Below, piece after piece: positions 3,182-46,135 of a DNA stretch of 64,000 nucleotides. The stretch's first letter is position 1. The number at the start of each line of letters is the position of its first letter. The translations under genes and the position numbers were made by a program. The stretch is taken from the NCBI GenBank assembly GCA_031761875.1, contig CP134492.1:3534001-3598000 (forward strand), in the 5' to 3' direction. The notes beneath the pieces are model-generated. The model searched no databases. It was not told the origin of the DNA and saw only the letters and a list, made by a program, of their open reading frames with translations. The DNA comes from Bacillaceae bacterium IKA-2. Lineage in GTDB: Bacteria > Bacillota > Bacilli > Bacillales > Anaerobacillaceae.

Positions 3182-4618
3182 TTATTCATCCCCTCTTGTT
3201 AATACACCATAAAGATCAGTGTATGATCTTGCAGACTTTGTCCAACTATTATCAGACCTTATCATATTTTTTTGTAGAGATTTCCAAAGTAGCGGGTCCT
3301 TATAAGTTGATATCGCACGCTTAATCGTAAACAGCATATCATGAGCGTTATAATTGGCAAAGCTAAAGCCATTTCCTTGTAATGTTTCTTCATCAAAAGG
3401 TGTTACTGTATCTACAAGCCCCCCTGTTTCGCGGACAATTGGGGCACTAGCATAACGAAGTGCTATTAGCTGCCCAATTCCACACGGCTCAAAACGAGAT
3501 GGCATCAGAAAAATGTCACTTGCCGCGTAAATTCTTCGTGCAAATCCTTCGTTAAATGTAATATGAGTAGAAATCTTATCTGGATAACGAGCTTGAGCAT
3601 ATCTAAAAAATCTTTCATACTCGGCATCACCAGTACCTAAAACAACGAGCTGAACATCTTCTTTCATGAGTTCATCTAATATATTAGCAACAAGATCAAC
3701 CCCCTTTTGCTCTACAAAGCGGGTAATAATTGCGATCATCGGTGTTTCTTTTGTTTCTGGTAATCCCAGTTGCTTTTGTAACTCAAGTTTATTTTTATGC
3801 TTTTTCACCTGAGAACTCCGATAAGGAAAAGTTAGATTCTCATCATTCATTGAATCATATTGATGATAGTCAAGTCCATTGACAATCCCAATTAGATCAA
3901 TCGTACGCTTCTGCAGCAGTCCATTTAATTGTTCTCCGTAATAAGGGTTTTGAATTTCTTTTGCATACGTTTCACTGACAGTCGTAATAAGGTCAGCATG
4001 ATTAAGAGCACTTTTCAAAAAGTTGACGCAGCCATAAAACTCGATACTATCTGTTGTAAAATTCTCGTCGCCTAACGAGAGCAGATCAGACAATACTTCT
4101 TTCGGAAAAATTCCTTGATATTTTAAGTTATGGACTGTAAAAATAGTTTTCACATCTTGATAAAATGGATGATCACGATAATGTGTTTTCAAAAATAATG
4201 GGATCAGTGATGTTTGCCAATCATGGCAATGCAACACATCAGGTTGAAAATCAATATGTGGCAACATTTCGAGAACCGCTCGGTTAAAATAAGCGAAACG
4301 CTCCCCATCATCATAATATCCGTAAAGCCCTACTCGTTTAAAATAATACTCATTGTCGATAAAGTAAAAAGTAATCTCATTTTTTACTAGTTTTTCAACA
4401 CCGACATATTGACTTCGCCAACCTACTTGTGCAAACCCCTTGTAGATTAAGGTCATCTCATCTTTGTATTCCGATGAGATATCTTCATATTTCGGTAGAA
4501 CCACTCGAACATCGACGTCTTGTTTAAGTAACTCCTGAGGCAAAGCACCAATAACATCGGCAAGACCTCCAGTTTTAATAAACGGAGTACATTCTGTGGC
4601 AATGAATAGGACCTTCAT
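3182..4618 (-). CDS. glgA: Glycogen synthase (ADP-glucose)
   Basis: Adds glucose from ADP-glucose to the growing alpha-1,4-glucan. It is a GT5-family glycosyltransferase with the N-terminal KTGGLADV nucleotide-sugar loop and the C-terminal acceptor/nucleotide region FEPCGIGQL; at 478 residues it has the normal length. An upstream in-frame extension to 4681 exists, but I chose ATG at 4618 (MKVLFIATECTPF) because this is where the family begins and AGGAGATG lies just upstream. A gap of about 125 bp separates it from glgD upstream, while glgP follows after 2 bp. Confidence 0.95.
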   Translation of the reverse strand: MKVLFIATECTPFIKTGGLADVIGALPQELLKQDVDVRVVLPKYEDISSEYKDEMTLIYKGFAQVGWRSQYVGVEKLVKNEITFYFIDNEYYFKRVGLYGYYDDGERFAYFNRAVLEMLPHIDFQPDVLHCHDWQTSLIPLFLKTHYRDHPFYQDVKTIFTVHNLKYQGIFPKEVLSDLLSLGDENFTTDSIEFYGCVNFLKSALNHADLITTVSETYAKEIQNPYYGEQLNGLLQKRTIDLIGIVNGLDYHQYDSMNDENLTFPYRSSQVKKHKNKLELQKQLGLPETKETPMIAIITRFVEQKGVDLVANILDELMKEDVQLVVLGTGDAEYERFFRYAQARYPDKISTHITFNEGFARRIYAASDIFLMPSRFEPCGIGQLIALRYASAPIVRETGGLVDTVTPFDEETLQGNGFSFANYNAHDMLFTIKRAISTYKDPLLWKSLQKNMIRSDNSWTKSARSYTDLYGVLTRGDE

Positions 4619-38966: not shown

Positions 38967-39681
38967 CTACTCCCCCAAAGCTAACTGATTTATTTTAGGA
39001 TAGGTTATAAAAAACGTTGTTCCTCGATCAATTTCACTTTCCACATCAATCGTCGCGTCCATTGACTTAATAATACTAAAAGCAACCATTGTCCCTAGAC
39101 CTGTGCCTTGAATTTTTTTTGAAAAAATAGGTAATCCCAGCTGAGCAATTTTTTGGCTTGACATACCGACACCATAATCTGTGATCGAAACGACAATTTT
39201 TTTGCTTGTATTTTCAGCACGTAAAACAAGTATTCCGCCTACTGGCATTGCTTCAATCCCATTTTTTATAATATTAATGATACTCTGCCGAAACTTTTGA
39301 CGATCACCAACTATAAACCCTTCTTCCTTGGCATCAGCAATTATTTCCACACCTCTCATTAACGCATAAGGGGTCATTACTTTAATTAAATAGTTTATTT
39401 CTTCTAGGATAGCTAATTTTTCCTTATTATTTTGAGGACTAGGCTTCGCATAAATTAAGTAATTATTAATAATTTCCTGAGCGCGATCTAACTCTAAAAG
39501 TGACAGATCTAAATATTCTTTTTGTTTTTTTTCACTAATATCATCATCTCGCAACAGCTGTAGAAATCCTTTCGTCACAGTTAACGGATTTCGTACCTCA
39601 TGGGAAACACTTGCTGCCAGCTCACTAATTACCCTAAGCTTCTCTGCCTCATTAGCTTGATTTTGGATTTTAAAAGTATTC
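38967..39681 (-). pseudogene. Sensor histidine kinase paralogue, C-terminal part (cut by IS21)
   Basis: Kinase core of a second 5TM-LYT kinase: EKLRVISELAASVSHEVRNPLTV, the N-box and G boxes are intact. The coding frame runs upstream to 39681 and is then broken by the IS21-like element. Joined on paper to the fragment at 45579-46135 with one copy of GTATTC, the frame is continuous (YLIEYILNTFKIQNQANEAEKLRV) and gives 1272 bp, 423 codons, exactly the length of the neighbour at 37693-38964. The fragment lacks its sensor half, so the kinase is presumed inactive; an internal start at 39578 would give a soluble remnant. Confidence 0.93.
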
Positions 39682-39768
39682 TGTTTATGATACTCTAAAA
39701 GTGGCCCATTAATAGAATAATATCAATTGAAAAACGGTCCAGTACTTTAACACTAATCTCTTACTGTT

Positions 39769-40593
39769 ATGATGGCAGTAAAGGGGTGGGATGGAGTGAT
39801 TGAGATAATGGACAAACATGCAATAATAAAACTAAAGCAGCAAGGTGTATCCAATAGAAAAGCTGCCAAGCTTTTAAACATCAATCGGAAAACAGTCGCA
39901 ATCTATTGGAATGAGTACCAGAAGAACAATACTCTGTTGAATGCCTTAGACGTTAATAAAAAAGAAGTACAAGAAGTACAAGAAAAAATATGCGAGGCAC
40001 CAAAGTATAATGCTCAAAATAGAAAGCCAAGAAAGTACACAGCAGAAATCGATACCAGATTAGACGAAATCCTAGAGAGTGAATCTGAAAAGTGTAAAGA
40101 GTTAGGTCGACATAAACAACAGCTGACTAATTTGCAAATTCACCAAATGCTAGTCAATGAAAAGTTTGATATTGGATATACAACTATTACAAATAAAATC
40201 AGAGAAAAAAGAAACAAACCTAAGGAATGCTTTATTAAACAATCATATGATTTAGGGCAAAGACTTGAATATGATTTTGGCGAAGTGAAGTTAGAAATAA
40301 ACGGGGAGATCAATACCTATCATCTAGCTGTACTATCTTCACCAGCTGCTGATTTCAGATGGGCGTATTTATATAAGAATCAAAAGCAAGACGTCTTTAT
40401 GGATTCTCATGTGCGTTTCTTCGATATGTTAGGTGGCGTTTATTCAGAGATTGTGTACGACAATATGAGAAATGTAGTATCAAAATTCATAGGTAAAACT
40501 GAAAAAGTCCTCAATGAGAATTTGCTAAAATTGTCACTCTACTACGGATTCGATATCAACGTCACTAATTGTTTCAGTGGAAACGAGAAGGGT
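39769..40593 (+). pseudogene. istA: IS21 transposase IstA, N-terminal part
   Basis: 275 codons of the IstA transposase: an N-terminal helix-turn-helix region (LKQQGVSNRKAAKLLNINRKTVAIYW) and the start of the DDE core (RLEYDFGEV with the first Asp, VYDNMRNVV with the second Asp, then CFSGNEKG). The reading frame continues after 40593 into the inserted element for eight codons (NEKYMIM) and stops at 40617. Joined to 44094-44774 it gives 501 codons, normal for IstA. Taken alone it lacks the catalytic glutamate and should be inactive. Confidence 0.93.
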
Positions 40594-40673
40594 AATGAAA
40601 AGTATATGATAATGTAAAGTAAGGCTGTTAGATAACTATAAACAAAGTGATTCTAGTTGTTTTACTTTACATT
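40586..40673. repeat. Left end of the RIT element
   Basis: The outer 45-bp inverted repeat contains AATGTAAAGTAAGGCTGTTA (40611-40630), and an inner inverted copy GTTTTACTTTACATT lies at 40659-40673. The outer and inner motifs together span 63 bp (40611-40673), the same distance as at the right end. They are likely recombinase-binding sites. Confidence 0.8.
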
Positions 40674-40682
40674 TTCAATGGC

Positions 40683-40720
40683 TATATTTAATATAGGCGA
40701 GGTCGCCTACGTTAAATATA
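40683..40720. repeat. Inverted repeat before the first recombinase
   Basis: TATATTTAA...TAGGCGA, then TCGCCTA...TTAAATATA, forming stems of 9 and 7 bp. It abuts the ribosome-binding site GGAGG (40721-40725) of the first recombinase gene. It may regulate expression or bind a protein. Confidence 0.6.
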
Positions 40721-40733
40721 GGAGGTTATGATT

Positions 40734-41981
40734 ATGGAACAAAAATATCAAACATTTGAACAACTGTCCTCAGAAGTAGTTAAATCCCTTCGGGATATGT
40801 CCTATTCCGAATCAAGGATAAGCCAATATCGTTCCGCGTGGCAAAAACTGGCTACTTTTATGGAAAACAATCAGATTGAGTATTATTCAGCGTCAGTAGG
40901 TGGAGCATTTATAGCTGACTTTATTGGTACTGGGAAATACGAGGAATTTAGCCATTGGGAAAAGAGCATAATCCGGTGTGTGGATGTTCTAACTGAATTT
41001 CAGTCTACAGGAACGTTCCAATACAGAAGGGCAAAGAAATCCTACCAATTTTATGGTTGCATCGGTAATCCTATGGTGGATTTCCTTAATCACCGAAAAT
41101 CTTTGGGTATTACAGAAAATACGCTTGGTCATTACCGATTAAATCTTCATCGCTTTCTTAGTTTTTTTAATGAAGAAGGAGTCATGGAAACCGAAGCAAT
41201 TAAAAAACAACACATTTTAGGATTTGTGAATCAGCTTGGTTTTTATACACCTGCAACGCGCCACAGCATGCTTACCACTTTACGTGGGTTTATGAGATAT
41301 CTACATGACAATGGGTATACAGGGATTGACTTTTCATACCTAATTCCAAAAGACAATTACAAGAAGCAATGTAAACTACCCACGACATATACGAAAAATG
41401 AAGTTGAATCATTAATCAATACTGTTGACAGAAGTAGCCCAAAAGGGAAGCGTGATGCTGCTATGATACTATTGGCTGCACGATTGGGATTGAGGGCTTC
41501 TGACATCTGTCTGTTGAAGTTTGAAAACATACACTGGGAAAAGAATACAATTACACTTGTTCAACAAAAGACTAAAAATAAGATTGAGCATCCACTTTTA
41601 ATAGAAATAGGAGAGGCTATTATCGATTATCTGAAGTATGGACGGCCTAAATCTGATCTTCCTTATGTCTTCCTACATGCAATCCCGCCATATAACTGCC
41701 TAAATAGATCGACTTTGCATAGCATTGTTACTTTTTATCTCCGTCGTGCTGGCATTAAAAACATAACAGAAAAGAAACATGGTCCTCATGCTTTGAGGCA
41801 CAGTCTTGCTGGGCAACTACTGGAACAAAAAATACCCATCCATGTTATATCAGAAGTGCTAGGTCACAAGAATACCGAAAGCACAAAAACTTATTTACGA
41901 ATAGACTTAACATCTTTGAGCCAATGCGCATTAGATGTTCCACTCTTAAAAACGCCATTTTATGCCAAGGAGGTGGAATGA
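40734..41981 (+). CDS. RIT tyrosine recombinase 1
   Basis: Site-specific recombinase of the integrase family, 415 residues. The catalytic set is present: Arg in ARLGLRASDI, HALRHS for the HxxR pair, LGHKNTESTKTYLRI for the last His and nucleophilic Tyr. The N-terminal part is a long SAM-like DNA-binding region. The start is ATG 40734, 8 nt after GGAGG; ATG 40728 is too close. Followed by recombinase 2 with an ATGA-type overlap. Confidence 0.88.
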   Translation: MEQKYQTFEQLSSEVVKSLRDMSYSESRISQYRSAWQKLATFMENNQIEYYSASVGGAFIADFIGTGKYEEFSHWEKSIIRCVDVLTEFQSTGTFQYRRAKKSYQFYGCIGNPMVDFLNHRKSLGITENTLGHYRLNLHRFLSFFNEEGVMETEAIKKQHILGFVNQLGFYTPATRHSMLTTLRGFMRYLHDNGYTGIDFSYLIPKDNYKKQCKLPTTYTKNEVESLINTVDRSSPKGKRDAAMILLAARLGLRASDICLLKFENIHWEKNTITLVQQKTKNKIEHPLLIEIGEAIIDYLKYGRPKSDLPYVFLHAIPPYNCLNRSTLHSIVTFYLRRAGIKNITEKKHGPHALRHSLAGQLLEQKIPIHVISEVLGHKNTESTKTYLRIDLTSLSQCALDVPLLKTPFYAKEVE

Positions 41982-42952
41982 TGCCGAACTATTGTGGTAT
42001 TTATGCTGGTTTAATCGAACAGTACATTGATTTCAAAAGAAACCTCGGTTACAAGTTTGTTGATGCCACTTACACACTTTCGTTATTTGACAGATTTACA
42101 ATAGATAATGCCGTATTAAAACTCGGTCTATCAAAGGAGATTGTTGATAAATGGAGTGAGAAGCGTCCAAATGAATCAGACAAGACACGTTATGCGAGGA
42201 TTCATTATATTGCAAAATTTTCCGCCTATTTAAATGATATGGGATATCCATCACATATACCGAGATTGCCTAAAAAGTACAGCAGTACGTTTGTACCACA
42301 TATTTTCTCGAAAAAGGAAGTGAATGCATTCTTCGATGCATGTGATACGCTTAAAGTTAATAGACGATTTGAAACAACTGTGTATGTACTCCCCGCTTTA
42401 TTTAGAATGCTATATGGCTGTGGCATCCGTATCAGCGAAGCGTTATCCCTAACATGTAAGGATGTTGATCTTGATGCAAAAAATATTATTGTCAGGGAAA
42501 CGAAAAACGGCAAAGACCGAATACTCCCATTATCTGAAACACTAACTGAGGTGTGTATTCAATATAGGAATGTTCGTCCCGGCAAATATGAACCGAAAGG
42601 TTATTTTTTTATCAAGAACAATGGGCAAAAATGTAATGCCAAGGCAATATATGAATGGTTCAGAAAAATACTCTGGAATGCAGGAATTCCACATGGTGGG
42701 AAGGGTTTTGGCCCAAGAATGCATGACTTTCGTCACACTTTCAGTGTACACTCTCTTGTGAAAATGTCAGAAGCTGGGCTAGATTTATACTACTCACTCC
42801 CAATATTATCAAAATATCTTGGGCATCAGTCATTAGAGGCTACAGATAAGTATGTAAGGCTAACATCTGACATGTACCCTGATTTAATTAGAGAAGTAGA
42901 TAACGTTTGTGCCTATGTATTTCCGGAGGTTGACCATTATGAAGCCGACTGA
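41981..42952 (+). CDS. RIT tyrosine recombinase 2
   Basis: 323-residue integrase. Arg in YGCGIRISEAL, HDFRHTFSVH, and LGHQSLEATDKYVRL with the nucleophile Tyr, so all catalytic positions are intact. AAGGAGGTGG ends 7 nt before ATG 41981; an ATG at 41978 overlaps the previous stop codon. It overlaps recombinase 3 by 14 bp. The chain of overlaps suggests the three proteins are made in a fixed ratio. Confidence 0.88.
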   Translation: MPNYCGIYAGLIEQYIDFKRNLGYKFVDATYTLSLFDRFTIDNAVLKLGLSKEIVDKWSEKRPNESDKTRYARIHYIAKFSAYLNDMGYPSHIPRLPKKYSSTFVPHIFSKKEVNAFFDACDTLKVNRRFETTVYVLPALFRMLYGCGIRISEALSLTCKDVDLDAKNIIVRETKNGKDRILPLSETLTEVCIQYRNVRPGKYEPKGYFFIKNNGQKCNAKAIYEWFRKILWNAGIPHGGKGFGPRMHDFRHTFSVHSLVKMSEAGLDLYYSLPILSKYLGHQSLEATDKYVRLTSDMYPDLIREVDNVCAYVFPEVDHYEAD

Positions 42953-43958
42953 TTTCTCTCGCTATCTGACAGGATTTCTTACAAAATACCTGCCAGGAGA
43001 AATGGGGTTCAGTATAAATACGATTGCCTCTTATAGAGACACATTTGTACTTTTCCTTACATTTATCAAGGATAAAAAAGGAATAAAAACAAATTCTCTG
43101 ACGCTGGGCATGATTAATAAGGAAATGGTTATTCACTTTCTTGACTGGATAGAAACAGAGCGTGGCTGTAGTACAGCCACAAGGAACGTCCGCCTTGCGG
43201 CATTACACTCTTTCTTCCAATATCTCCAGTATCAGAGCCCCGATAATCTTTTGGAATGGCAGAGAATCCTTGGAATCCGGGTTAAGAAAACAGAAACAAA
43301 ATCAATCAGTTACCTAACGCTTAATGGGATCAGACTACTTTTGGAAATGCCTGATCAGTCAACTAAAATAGGACGAAGAGATCTTGCTCTTTTGTCAATT
43401 ATGTATGAAAGCGGTGGAAGAGTACAGGAAATCATTGACCTCACTCCGTCACAAGTACGTTTTGACAGACCATGTACTGTAAAGTTAATTGGTAAGGGGA
43501 ATAAAGCCCGGATAGTCCCTCTGATGGATGCTCCGTTAGATTTATTAAATCGATATATGGATGAGCAGGGGCTGTTAAGTTTGTCAGCAAACATGTACCC
43601 ATTGTTCTGTAACAAAAGAGGAGAAAAACTGACCCGGGCAGGGGTGAATTACATACTAGATAAATATGCACGCAAGGCTCGTATTAAAGATCAAATATTA
43701 ATCCCAGAACGATTTAGCTGTCATTGTCTGAGACATTCAAAAGCTATGCACTTACTCCAAGCAGGAGTTAATCTCATATACATCCGTGATATACTAGGTC
43801 ACCGTTCTGTCCAAACAACTGAAATTTACGCTAAGGTAGATTCAAAACAAAAAAGAGAAGCAATTGAAAAAGCATATACAGATGTTGTACCAAAAGGTGC
43901 ACCTTCTTGGCAAAAAAGTGGAGATTTATTGGAATGGCTAAAAAGATTTGATAAATAA
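42939..43958 (+). CDS. RIT tyrosine recombinase 3
   Basis: 339-residue integrase with Arg in YESGGRVQEII, HCLRHSKAMHLL, and LGHRSVQTTEIYAKV with the Tyr. ATG at 42939 follows GGAGGT by 9 nt; the frame stays open 10 codons further upstream. Closest by eye to XerC/Tn554-like integrases. Together with recombinases 1 and 2 it forms the trio that gives RIT elements their name. Confidence 0.88.
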   Translation: MKPTDFSRYLTGFLTKYLPGEMGFSINTIASYRDTFVLFLTFIKDKKGIKTNSLTLGMINKEMVIHFLDWIETERGCSTATRNVRLAALHSFFQYLQYQSPDNLLEWQRILGIRVKKTETKSISYLTLNGIRLLLEMPDQSTKIGRRDLALLSIMYESGGRVQEIIDLTPSQVRFDRPCTVKLIGKGNKARIVPLMDAPLDLLNRYMDEQGLLSLSANMYPLFCNKRGEKLTRAGVNYILDKYARKARIKDQILIPERFSCHCLRHSKAMHLLQAGVNLIYIRDILGHRSVQTTEIYAKVDSKQKREAIEKAYTDVVPKGAPSWQKSGDLLEWLKRFDK

Positions 43959-43979
43959 AATAGTGTTTGCGTTGCAGAT

Positions 43980-44093
43980 AATGTAAAGTAAAACAGCGAG
44001 GGATCCTTTACTTACGGTTATTTAACAGCCTTACTTTACATTATCATATACTTTTCATTACCCTTCTAATGTAAAGCTTTGCATTAGAAGGGT
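43980..44093. repeat. Right end of the RIT element
   Basis: Inner motif AATGTAAAGTAAAAC (43980-43994), outer TAACAGCCTTACTTTACATT (44023-44042), and the mirror of the left repeat to 44067. Then AATGTAAAGCTTTGCATT (44068-44085) and AGAAGGGT (44086-44093). The block ACCCTTCT-AATG...CATT-AGAAGGGT (44060-44093) is a 34-bp palindrome with one mismatched pair. Confidence 0.8.
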
Positions 44094-44774
44094 CATGTGG
44101 AGGGCAGCGTGAAGATAATTAGGAACAAAGCATTTGCGTTAACTTATAAGTTTAAGACATTCGATGATGCACGTGAATACTTGAATACTATATTGATAGA
44201 ACTCAATAAAGACAGCACTATTTCTGAAGAAATAAAACATCTTCAACCTACAAAACCAAAGCTTGATCTTGCAACAGTTACAGTGCAAAAACCAAATAAA
44301 TATAGTTTTGTACGAGTTGATAACAACCACTATTCAGTACCGGAGTATCTTGTAGGACGCTTAATAACAATCAAGAAATATTACGACACAATAGGCTTTT
44401 ATTCAAACAACATACTCGTTTGTGAACACAAAAAAATAGATGGTACTAACGAGATAAGTATTAAAATTAAACATTACTTAAACTCATTAAACAAAAAACC
44501 AGGTGCAATCAAGAACTCCCACGCTCTAAAAAGCATACCAAGGTTAAAAGCCATCTATGATACTAATTTTAGCAGAAACAAGAAAAAATTCATAGAGATC
44601 ATTCAAGAAAATGATGATAAACCAATCGAAGAAATACTATTGATTCTAGAAACATACAATAAATCTCATATCGATATTATTCCATCTATGCACATAGATA
44701 AAACTGCACTTAGCAACATCGCTACAAGGCAAGTATCTAGATATAACGAATTATGTTTCTCGGAGGTGGAATAA
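44094..44774 (+). pseudogene. istA: IS21 transposase IstA, C-terminal part
   Basis: Continues the istA frame with HVEGSVKIIRNKAFA, which supplies the probable catalytic glutamate (HVE), and then the C-terminal beta domain (VRVDNNHYSVPEYLVG). A GTG at 44097 could start translation of the fragment, but GGAGG is absent. The stop codon at 44772-44774 is immediately followed by the istB ATG. Confidence 0.9.
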
Positions 44775-45521
44775 ATGCAAATACAAGAAATGGCCCATAT
44801 ACTAAAATTACCCTATATAAAAACCAATTATCAAATGCTTCTTGATGAAGCAAACCATACAAACATGACCCACCGAGAGCTGATAAGTCGTCTACTCGAA
44901 AGAGAATTAGAACTAAGGCTTGAGAATGGTTTAAAACATAGACTCAGAAGGGCTAAATTCCCTCTTAACAAGTACTTAGAAGACTTCGACAAGAGTAAGT
45001 ACCATAAGAAATTTATACCGAAATTCGAAGAACTAGAAACGTTGCAGTTCATTGAAAATAAAGAAAATATAATCTTAATAGGATCTCCTGGCTGCGGGAA
45101 ATCACATTATAGTATTGGGCTTGGTATTAAGGCGTGTTTGGAAGGCAAAAGTGTATTGTTTATCTCTGTACCTAACTTAATAATAGAGTTAAAAGAAGCA
45201 ATGAGTGAAAGCAAACTATCGCAATATAAAACCAAATTTGAAAAGTACAGTCTTGTCGTTTTAGATGAACTGGGATACGTATCATTTGACAAAATTGGTT
45301 GTGAAATACTATTTAATTTATTATCAAATAGAAACGATAAAGGATCAATAATCATAACAACAAACTTGGCTTTTGATCGCTGGGAAGAGATTTTTAAAGA
45401 CCCGATGCTTACTGGTGCAATTGTAGATAGACTTGCTCACAAATCACATATCTTAGATATTTCACGAGAAGTAAGTCACCGATTTGAAGAGACAATGTCA
45501 TGGCTAAAACCAACTAAATAA
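44775..45521 (+). CDS. istB: IS21 helper ATPase IstB
   Basis: AAA+ ATPase that assists IstA in target choice and strand transfer. The 248 residues have Walker A GSPGCGKSHY and Walker B YSLVVLDELGY; LANRNDKGSIIITTN-like sensor 1 (SNRNDKGSIIITTNLAF) follows. Length and motifs are typical. Directly after istA, with GGAGGTGG as ribosome site. Intact, so it could in principle help other IS21 copies in trans. Confidence 0.92.
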   Translation: MQIQEMAHILKLPYIKTNYQMLLDEANHTNMTHRELISRLLERELELRLENGLKHRLRRAKFPLNKYLEDFDKSKYHKKFIPKFEELETLQFIENKENIILIGSPGCGKSHYSIGLGIKACLEGKSVLFISVPNLIIELKEAMSESKLSQYKTKFEKYSLVVLDELGYVSFDKIGCEILFNLLSNRNDKGSIIITTNLAFDRWEEIFKDPMLTGAIVDRLAHKSHILDISREVSHRFEETMSWLKPTK

Positions 45522-45572
45522 GTGGACCTTTTTTCAACTGATTCGTGGACCGCTTTTGAGTTGACAAATACA

Positions 45573-46135
45573 GTATTCAAAATGTACTCAATAAGGTAAA
45601 TCGTTAAAGCAAGTGTAAAAAATAAAATAAGAAAATGTGTAAGTAGGATTGTTAAAAAATAACGATTTATTAATTCAGTGAAAAACATTGCAACGATAGC
45701 GAAATTAACTATGTATATAAATACTAAAAAATTTAATGGTATTGCCAATTTTTTTGATAGTGAAAAATGAATGAAGTTAGTGCCTATTAAGATCGTGAAA
45801 ATCCAGATAATTAAGACTTGAACAATTGTTATAGATAACCCTAAATCAACGCCTACTAAAATATAGCGAAAAAATAGTATAGCAATTAACAAGGTAACCC
45901 CAACTTTTCTGCCACCATATAAAGCTCCAACTATGAAAGGAATAATTCGCAAATCATAACTATGATCACCAAGGTCAATAAAAGGGAATTTTATACATAA
46001 GTAAATCGCAACCATCGCTATCGTTGAAATTAAAAAGTAGCGATATTTCTCTTCTAGCTTTCGATTCATACTGAAAACAAAATAGCTTAAAATACATACT
46101 AAGATTATTAGGACATTTAACAATAAATTAACCAA
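45573..46135 (-). pseudogene. Sensor histidine kinase paralogue, N-terminal membrane part (cut by IS21)
   Basis: Membrane sensor half of the interrupted kinase: about five hydrophobic helices with DLRIIPFIVGALYGGRKVGV, nearly the same as its intact neighbour (DLRIIPFMIGALYGGRKVAT). The frame continues past 45573 into the IS21 end and stops at 45476. See 38967-39681 for the rest. The original start is ATG 46135. Confidence 0.93.

Follow-up and report, generated by a model that had tools for sequence, protein, structure and literature searches.

How has a set of three recombinase genes come to lie precisely beside the catalytic motif of a transposase gene, and is that motif its target? The question is raised by a 64,000-nucleotide stretch of Bacillaceae bacterium IKA-2 (contig CP134492.1, positions 3,534,001 to 3,598,000; hereafter the window), in which an insertion sequence (IS) of the IS21 family carries an insert within its transposase gene istA. 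A first-pass annotation had described the recombinase trio there and raised the possibility that it targets a conserved part of IS21 transposase genes. The insert is a recombinase-in-trio (RIT) element, and by its genes an ordinary one. The explanation that we consider highly probable as a whole is that a RIT without cargo genes at this locus parasitises the IS, carries a double core allowing entry either way round, and is directed to a conserved motif.

Anatomy of the element and its carrier

The IS alone measures 2391 bp and the composite 5891 bp, leaving 3500 bp (5891 - 2391) for the insert including one core. The features of the composite, in window coordinates, are as follows.

39682..45572, plus strand: IS21-family IS with insert, composite of 5891 bp; ends TGTTTATG...AATACA common to all copies
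39769..40593, plus strand: 5' part of istA, through the overlap (codons to E273-K-G); alone it scores 130 bits against NF033546 transpos_IS21, under the cut-off of 160
40586..40630, plus strand: left terminal inverted repeat, 45 bp, perfect
40587..40592, plus strand: left 6-bp overlap GAAGGG (istA junction), followed by the outer arm TAATGAAAAG at 40593-40602
40608..40677, plus strand: subterminal inverted copies of the arm-like motif GATAATGTAAAGTAA, left end, spacing 39 nt
40728..41981, plus strand: RitA, tyrosine recombinase, PF00589 E 8e-33
41978..42952, plus strand: RitB, tyrosine recombinase, PF00589 E 1e-26 (scan from 41981); ATGA at 41978 shared with ritA
42939..43958, plus strand: RitC, tyrosine recombinase, PF00589 E 4e-31; 14-bp overlap with ritB
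43977..44045, plus strand: subterminal inverted copies of GATAATGTAAAGTAA, right end, spacing 39 nt
44023..44067, minus strand: right terminal inverted repeat, 45 bp, perfect
44061..44066, minus strand: inner overlap, the element's own copy, GAAGGG on the minus strand
44067..44086, no strand: near-palindromic spacer, 20 bp, TAATGTAAAG.CTTTGCATTA, two arms head-to-head
44087..44092, plus strand: right 6-bp overlap GAAGGG (istA junction)
44086..44774, plus strand: 3' part of istA, opening with the overlap; the catalytic Glu, E278 when numbered over 501 codons, lies three codons downstream
44775..45521, plus strand: istB, intact; NF038214 231 bits against a cut-off of 200, PF01695 E 4e-60

PF00589 is found in RitA, RitB and RitC, which are adjacent in the order A-B-C, and each protein finds its own homologue, in the same order, in the relatives described below. 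The catalytic R, HxxR, H and Y columns are invariant across 9 RitA proteins, and the SAM-like domain of RitA (residues 127-194) is preceded by a further N-terminal part. The overlap of ritB with ritC is somewhat above the reported 4-8 bp, the length agrees with the ~3,500 bp of RITs, and inverted repeats with palindromic sequence stand at the ends. The carrier has adjacent istA and istB, encoding a DDE transposase and an AAA+ ATPase, and the whole 501-codon IstA reading matches the IS5376 IstA in PDB (8q4d). A 6-bp target duplication, GTATTC, flanks the composite (39676-39681 and 45573-45578). A histidine-kinase-like gene on the minus strand appears to be split by it, with the C-terminal part at 38967-39681 and the membrane N-terminal part at 45573-46135.

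An exact insertion site beside the catalytic glutamate

The 45-bp perfect inverted repeat reported in the first-pass annotation is present (40586-40630 against 44023-44067) and is nested in a 91-nt inverted repeat (86%). Its terminal 8 bp, AGAAGGGT, occur three times: 40586-40593, 44060-44067 (inverted) and, at the point where istA resumes, 44086-44093; as had been stated, the left copy also consists of istA codons (Glu-Lys-Gly of GNEKG). The joined flanks form an istA of 501 codons, the gene that removal of one copy had been predicted to restore. Because two empty IS copies elsewhere in the genome are letter-for-letter identical to this join, the restored reading frame does not have to be deduced. 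The 8-bp match is better read, from comparison of the junctions, as a 6-bp overlap GAAGGG with one arm base on either side. An overlap of 8 bp was dropped for one of 6 bp with 10-bp arms because relatives vary at the outer bases, and base 8 of the match differs between the two junctions in the relatives L086 and L088.

The overlap runs from the last base of the E273 codon through K274 into G275, of which it takes two bases, and E278 follows three codons on, so that the described placement beside the catalytic motif holds to the codon. E278 aligns with E233 of the solved IS5376 IstA (8q4d). In the excerpt of PMC10122671, D124, D187 and E233 are the catalytic residues of that protein, and mutating them almost abolishes integration. 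The annotation had left two alternatives, that the element brought the 8 bp or that it chose a target matching its own end; each is partly right, as the element has its own copy at 44061-44066 and the target has the same letters.

What the annotation did not contain was the near-palindrome between the right repeat and the resumed istA, the 20 copies in the genome and their two orientations. The near-palindrome (44067-44086) with its flanking 6-mers pairs at 15/16 positions; a value of 14 occurs at one further place in the window, and the maximum in 10 Markov-shuffled windows is 13. On the target side, the (H/N)-V-E codons resemble an arm (xxATGTGGAG vs TAATGTAAAG).

Copies in the IKA-2 genome lie in two orientations

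A whole-genome search recovered 20 copies of the trio, with RitA identical in all. The check named in the first-pass annotation, whether other copies lie in istA at the same codons, was borne out by 20/20, and copies in unrelated sequence, which would speak against targeting, were absent from the own-genome set (0/20 elsewhere). Alone this count is weak, as the element may have reached most of these places as a passenger of the IS; targeting is supported because independent elements in other genomes sit at the same place of other transposases. Eleven copies have the arrangement of the window and are identical over 5891 bp, 8 have the element inverted, and one (L024) is chimeric, so that the 19 simple copies divide 11 vs 8 (two-sided binomial p 0.65). 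The IS 3' part is present 23 times (19 + 2 + 2 empty).

The spacer of 8/8 inverted copies remains at the 3' side of istA and is turned round relative to that gene, its polarity being fixed relative to the element. This fits a circle with head-to-head cores, either of which could pair with the target. Homologous recombination between the inverted repeats was rejected as the source of the inverted copies, since it would keep the palindrome unchanged with respect to istA.

The IS itself has moved, with the element aboard or before the element arrived, because 15/20 RIT-bearing copies and one of the two empty copies show target duplications of 5-7 bp (by eye). Flanks are mismatched in L022, L023, L024, L038, L040 and the empty L041, and L022 and L041 share a flank, 5' in the former and 3' in the latter; such flanks point to exchange between copies. 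L024 (C1:2182375-2192875) holds one RIT with the istA 3' part and spacer on both sides, without an istA 5' part, and reads as an exchange product of copies in opposite arrangement.

A proposed composite attachment site

We propose that the attachment site is composite and that all three tyrosine recombinases work on it. The joint of the circular form would consist of two complete cores head to head (arm-overlap-arm followed by arm-overlap-arm), in each of which inverted arms of 10 bp enclose the 6-bp overlap. The single matching core of the target could recombine with either of them, which would permit entry in either orientation, and one core together with the palindromic spacer would always be left at the 3' side of the target gene. 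The reverse reaction would be excision, restoring the gene. The target would be recognised via the overlap and partly via the arm-like half-site. In the lineage here the overlap is written in the E-K-G codons just before the transposase catalytic Glu, and other RIT lineages appear to be aimed at different conserved motifs, again in genes of mobile elements or phages. Candidate binding sequences for RitA, RitB and RitC are the arm TAATGTAAAG, AATGTGGAG and the subterminal motifs. The IS, for its part, may transpose its passenger RIT by means of IstA that the two intact copies provide in trans. Precise insertion with its empty sites, both orientations, spacer polarity, the architecture, the target motifs and the grouping of target classes on the RitA tree are visible in the sequences themselves; the circle, the positions of strand exchange, excision, the roles of the recombinases and this transposition in trans are what we infer from them.

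Relatives strike conserved motifs of several genes

Relatives were collected with RitA, not the target gene, as bait, and the sample is therefore tied to RitA likeness. At the thresholds applied, genomes with a RitA match numbered 2/7 in the same family, 1/397 in the order (the own genome), 4/398 in the phylum, 20/154 in the class of genome G719 and 14/82 in the class of G550. Further sources were 5 GTDB contigs, 6 of 11 plasmid hits and 16 IMG/VR contigs; none of the plasmids carried a close relative at the DNA level. Among the class-level hits (n=51), 40 were fetched wide, 3 were already in the set and 8 partial hits were not fetched separately. The total was 76 loci outside the own genome. 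Junctions were located with a palindrome-and-repeat finder, many being curated by hand; L200 and L201 (28% and 21% identity) were left out of the junction script.

Many relatives have the same layout of outer arm, 6-bp overlap and 20-bp palindromic spacer on one side, with an outer-arm consensus of TTATGnnAAG (22 arms). Opposite orientations recur in L087 vs L088 (same IS, same genome) and in L079 vs L078/L080, and in G719 the target site also exists as an empty copy. The junction of L076 is that of the second trio of its stretch (RitA at 4112) and not of the first-found one. L150 has a palindromic spacer on both sides of the RIT.

At 48/76 loci the RIT sits in a conserved motif, and the gene concerned belongs to a mobile element or a phage; the classes are as follows.

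Transposase catalytic-Glu neighbourhood, K-G: L073, L085, L086, L087, L088, L147, L152, L170, L174
IstA R-D-K-A: L159, L160
Other DDE positions, W-Q-G-D and Y-V-D-N-G: L153, L076
IstA C-terminal domain: L175
IstB Walker A: L077, L078, L079, L080, L140, L141, L145, L149, L161, L162
Group II intron reverse transcriptase (RT) PQG|G: L142, L144, L163-L166, L182, L185
Tyrosine recombinase H-x-x-R-H or catalytic Tyr: L154, L155, L156, L173, L181, L171, L190
Amidoligase C-G-I-H: L167, L168, L188, L195, L198
Phage tail-completion/HK97-gp10-like protein (phage connector): L191, L192, L194, L199

The K-G class includes IS21 transposases above or at the NCBIfam cut-off (L086, L087/L088, L170) and a weak one (L073, 21 bits), together with IS481-like DDE transposases struck at the same K-G/E place (L085, L147, L152, L174). 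The proposal that a conserved part of IS21 transposases is targeted stands for L086, L087/L088 and L170 and proved too narrow, IS21 being one class of several. Motif targeting is thus supported by these sites in a form wider than IS21, with other RIT lineages apparently aiming at other motifs.

The target calls are backed by profile searches, apart from L144, L155, L156, L159, L164, L188, L195 and L181, which were called by eye or likeness; L181 has no Pfam match and adjoins a fragment annotated as site-specific integrase. Not all loci are independent (L078/L079/L080, L087/L088, L182/L185, L188/L195, and L194, which lies within L199). L157 has a weak R-D-K-G reading and was kept out of the target count and the overlap test. 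In L180, L183 and L189 a spacer or flank is visible and the target is not named. Eighteen loci were unusable, being contig ends, incomplete trios or not run (L071, L072, L074, L143, L146, L148, L151, L169, L176, L178, L179, L184, L187, L193, L196, L197, L200, L201). L071 and L072 are short contigs (3391 and 3443 bp) that stop close to the inverted repeats, which is what assembly would give on collapsing a RIT present in several copies.

RITs also occur inside one another: in L171 and L190 a RIT is nested in the ritC of another at the catalytic H-x-x-R-H, and L155 looks, by eye, like a RIT nested in a ritB. L145 and L161 each mirror L024: a single element, lacking a spacer, has the 5' half of one istB on one side and that of a different istB on the other, with Walker A as the break point in both genes. 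RITs thus seem to bring about fusions between different IS.

Target class follows the RitA tree and overlaps vary mostly synonymously

The distribution of target classes tracks the RitA tree. On a quick tree of 44 rows, with several long branches and with near-copies that favour clustering, it requires 11 changes against a shuffled mean of 29.8, and 0/200 shuffles were as low. One supported branch side holds the RT targets, and the same is true of the amidoligase and of the phage targets; IstB needs 2 changes.

The overlaps were compared in 40 hand-typed sets, each with three copies per element (left junction, inner, right junction), omitting L080 (same as L078), L194 (within L199) and the unassigned loci; the first base is not judged where the overlap begins at a codon third base. 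Copies inside one element differ in 24/40 sets, and in 21/24 of these all variants encode the same amino acids (null mean 3.4; 0/20000 reach 21). Two nested cases also keep Arg-His, giving 23/26 synonymous, and the variants of L154 and L155 include changes from one Arg codon box to the other. Inner and right copies disagree in 15 sets and encode the same residues in 13 of them. The inner copy derives from an earlier site, and most elements therefore seem to have passed from one copy of a motif to another.

Alternative explanations

The same observations could in part arise without targeting. If one chance entry into istA had been amplified by the IS, with recombination between the long inverted repeats producing the inverted copies, near-identical sequences, IS-type target duplications in 15/20 copies (by eye) and the 91-nt repeat of 86% would be expected, and IS transposition has very probably contributed something. 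We nevertheless find hitchhiking alone unlikely: the spacer is inverted with respect to istA in 8/8 copies though repeat recombination would leave it unchanged, two empty IS copies are present, and unrelated IS of other genomes are struck at the same codons. Alternatively, istA may be reached through an IS protein or a replication or transposition intermediate, the letters being secondary and copied from the element by repair of mismatched overlaps. Overlap copies that differ in 24/40 sets indicate that an exact match is not needed, as this route would have it; empty copies never visibly occupied (two in the IKA-2 genome, one in G719) carry the same overlap letters, and the group II intron RT and phage targets share no transposition intermediate. 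We hold such a route to be slightly less likely than hitchhiking. Least likely of all, in our judgement, is wide insertion without motif targeting, in which selection removed insertions from host genes and left those in mobile-element genes. Such genes are numerous and dispensable, and earlier RITs in IS66 tnpA, in radC of an integrative and conjugative element (ICE) and in a Tn6049-like transposase (PMC2864759, PMC3414803) fit this account. It leaves unexplained that the same few codons are hit, that different genes of one class are struck at the same motif (two amidoligase genes of G485 in L167 and L168, and several istB), and that target class matches the RitA tree.

Several observations weigh against the explanation that we prefer, a double-core RIT with motif targeting and either-way entry. 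The 20 copies are not 20 independent insertions, since IS transposition can have spread them; a single flip could account for both orientations, and spacer polarity depends on a single mismatched palindrome pair. The left flank of the target does not resemble an arm. An empty istB site was searched for in G004 and not found. Of the 58 loci with readable flanks, 10 were left unassigned (L075, L150, L157, L158, L172, L177, L180, L183, L186, L189), L075 sitting just upstream of an AbiEii-like gene, and 12 of the 48 assigned loci show one junction only (L073, L144, L152, L155, L156, L162-L164, L170, L174, L188, L195). KGE targets need 3 changes on the RitA tree, not 1, and neither the DDE_D label nor 'other' clusters there. 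Amino acid changes occur in 3/24 differing overlap sets (L085, L076, L163). Finally, circle, excision and integration are deduced from sequence comparison.

Relation to known systems

Tn554 (tnpA, tnpB, tnpC) also uses tyrosine recombinases, makes no target duplication, prefers the site radC and shares a short core with its target. Its third protein is small and not a recombinase, and it carries cargo genes; all three genes here encode full tyrosine recombinases. We know of no head-to-head double core in Tn554. The Tn554 and RIT groups are compared in PMC3414803. GInts and strand-biased circularizing integrative elements resemble RITs in having several tyrosine recombinases act together on one site (PMC5385486, PMC10214605); unlike RITs, they are large islands with a fourth essential gene and fixed chromosomal sites, and no invertible double core is described in the excerpts. 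The IS21 family, with istA and istB, ends of the TG...CA type and target duplications of 5-7 bp, provides the carrier, which is ordinary; the RIT is not part of IS21. Inteins and homing introns lie at conserved active-site codons, where targets stay available and imprecise loss is costly to the host gene. RIT placement works in the same way, but with different enzymes, and the gene is restored only by precise DNA excision, not by splicing.

RITs have been on record since 2009; the excerpts covered give neither a target rule nor a core site for them. Described there are trios of adjacent, overlapping tyrosine recombinase genes A, B and C (overlaps 4-8 bp, ~3.5 kb, palindromic inverted-repeat ends; PMC3414803), a RitA with two core-binding domains and a RitC with an extra C-terminal helix (PMC8138268). 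The three overlapping genes, the length of ~3.5 kb and the palindromic inverted-repeat ends are what the present element shares with the RIT literature (Van Houdt 2009, 2012; Ricker 2013). Sites given earlier, namely radC (two species; of an ICE), IS66 tnpA and a Tn6049-like transposase, fit the present target picture; these accounts left RIT ends unresolved and mobility unproven (PMC3414803, PMC2864759). The excerpts of PMC3414803, PMC2864759, PMC10214605, PMC8138268, PMC5385486 and PMC10322971, a set outside which Ricker 2013 and Van Houdt 2009 lie, contain no description of motif targeting by RITs. Nor do the earlier RIT accounts in that set contain the double core with its 20-bp palindromic spacer, the two orientations with spacer polarity, exact empty sites or catalytic-motif codons as target. 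Relative to this literature the target rule, the double core and two-way entry are new; the genes themselves are of a known kind.

Meaning for RIT biology

From the anatomy of this element follow a target rule for RITs and a concrete model of the site, together with an account of the two orientations. Beyond this locus we lean, by a narrow balance, towards seeing RITs as a widespread guild that parasitises mobile DNA, each lineage aimed at one conserved, often catalytic codon motif. The overlap would tolerate synonymous changes and record the previous target, and the double core would provide either-way entry and precise exit. Transposases, recombinases (those of other RITs among them) and intron reverse transcriptases may be switched on and off by such elements. 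If this is true, a small recombinase family reads the codons of conserved motifs, tolerates synonymous changes in them, and inserts into and may regulate other mobile DNA, and the mechanism of RITs would thereby be open to direct laboratory test.

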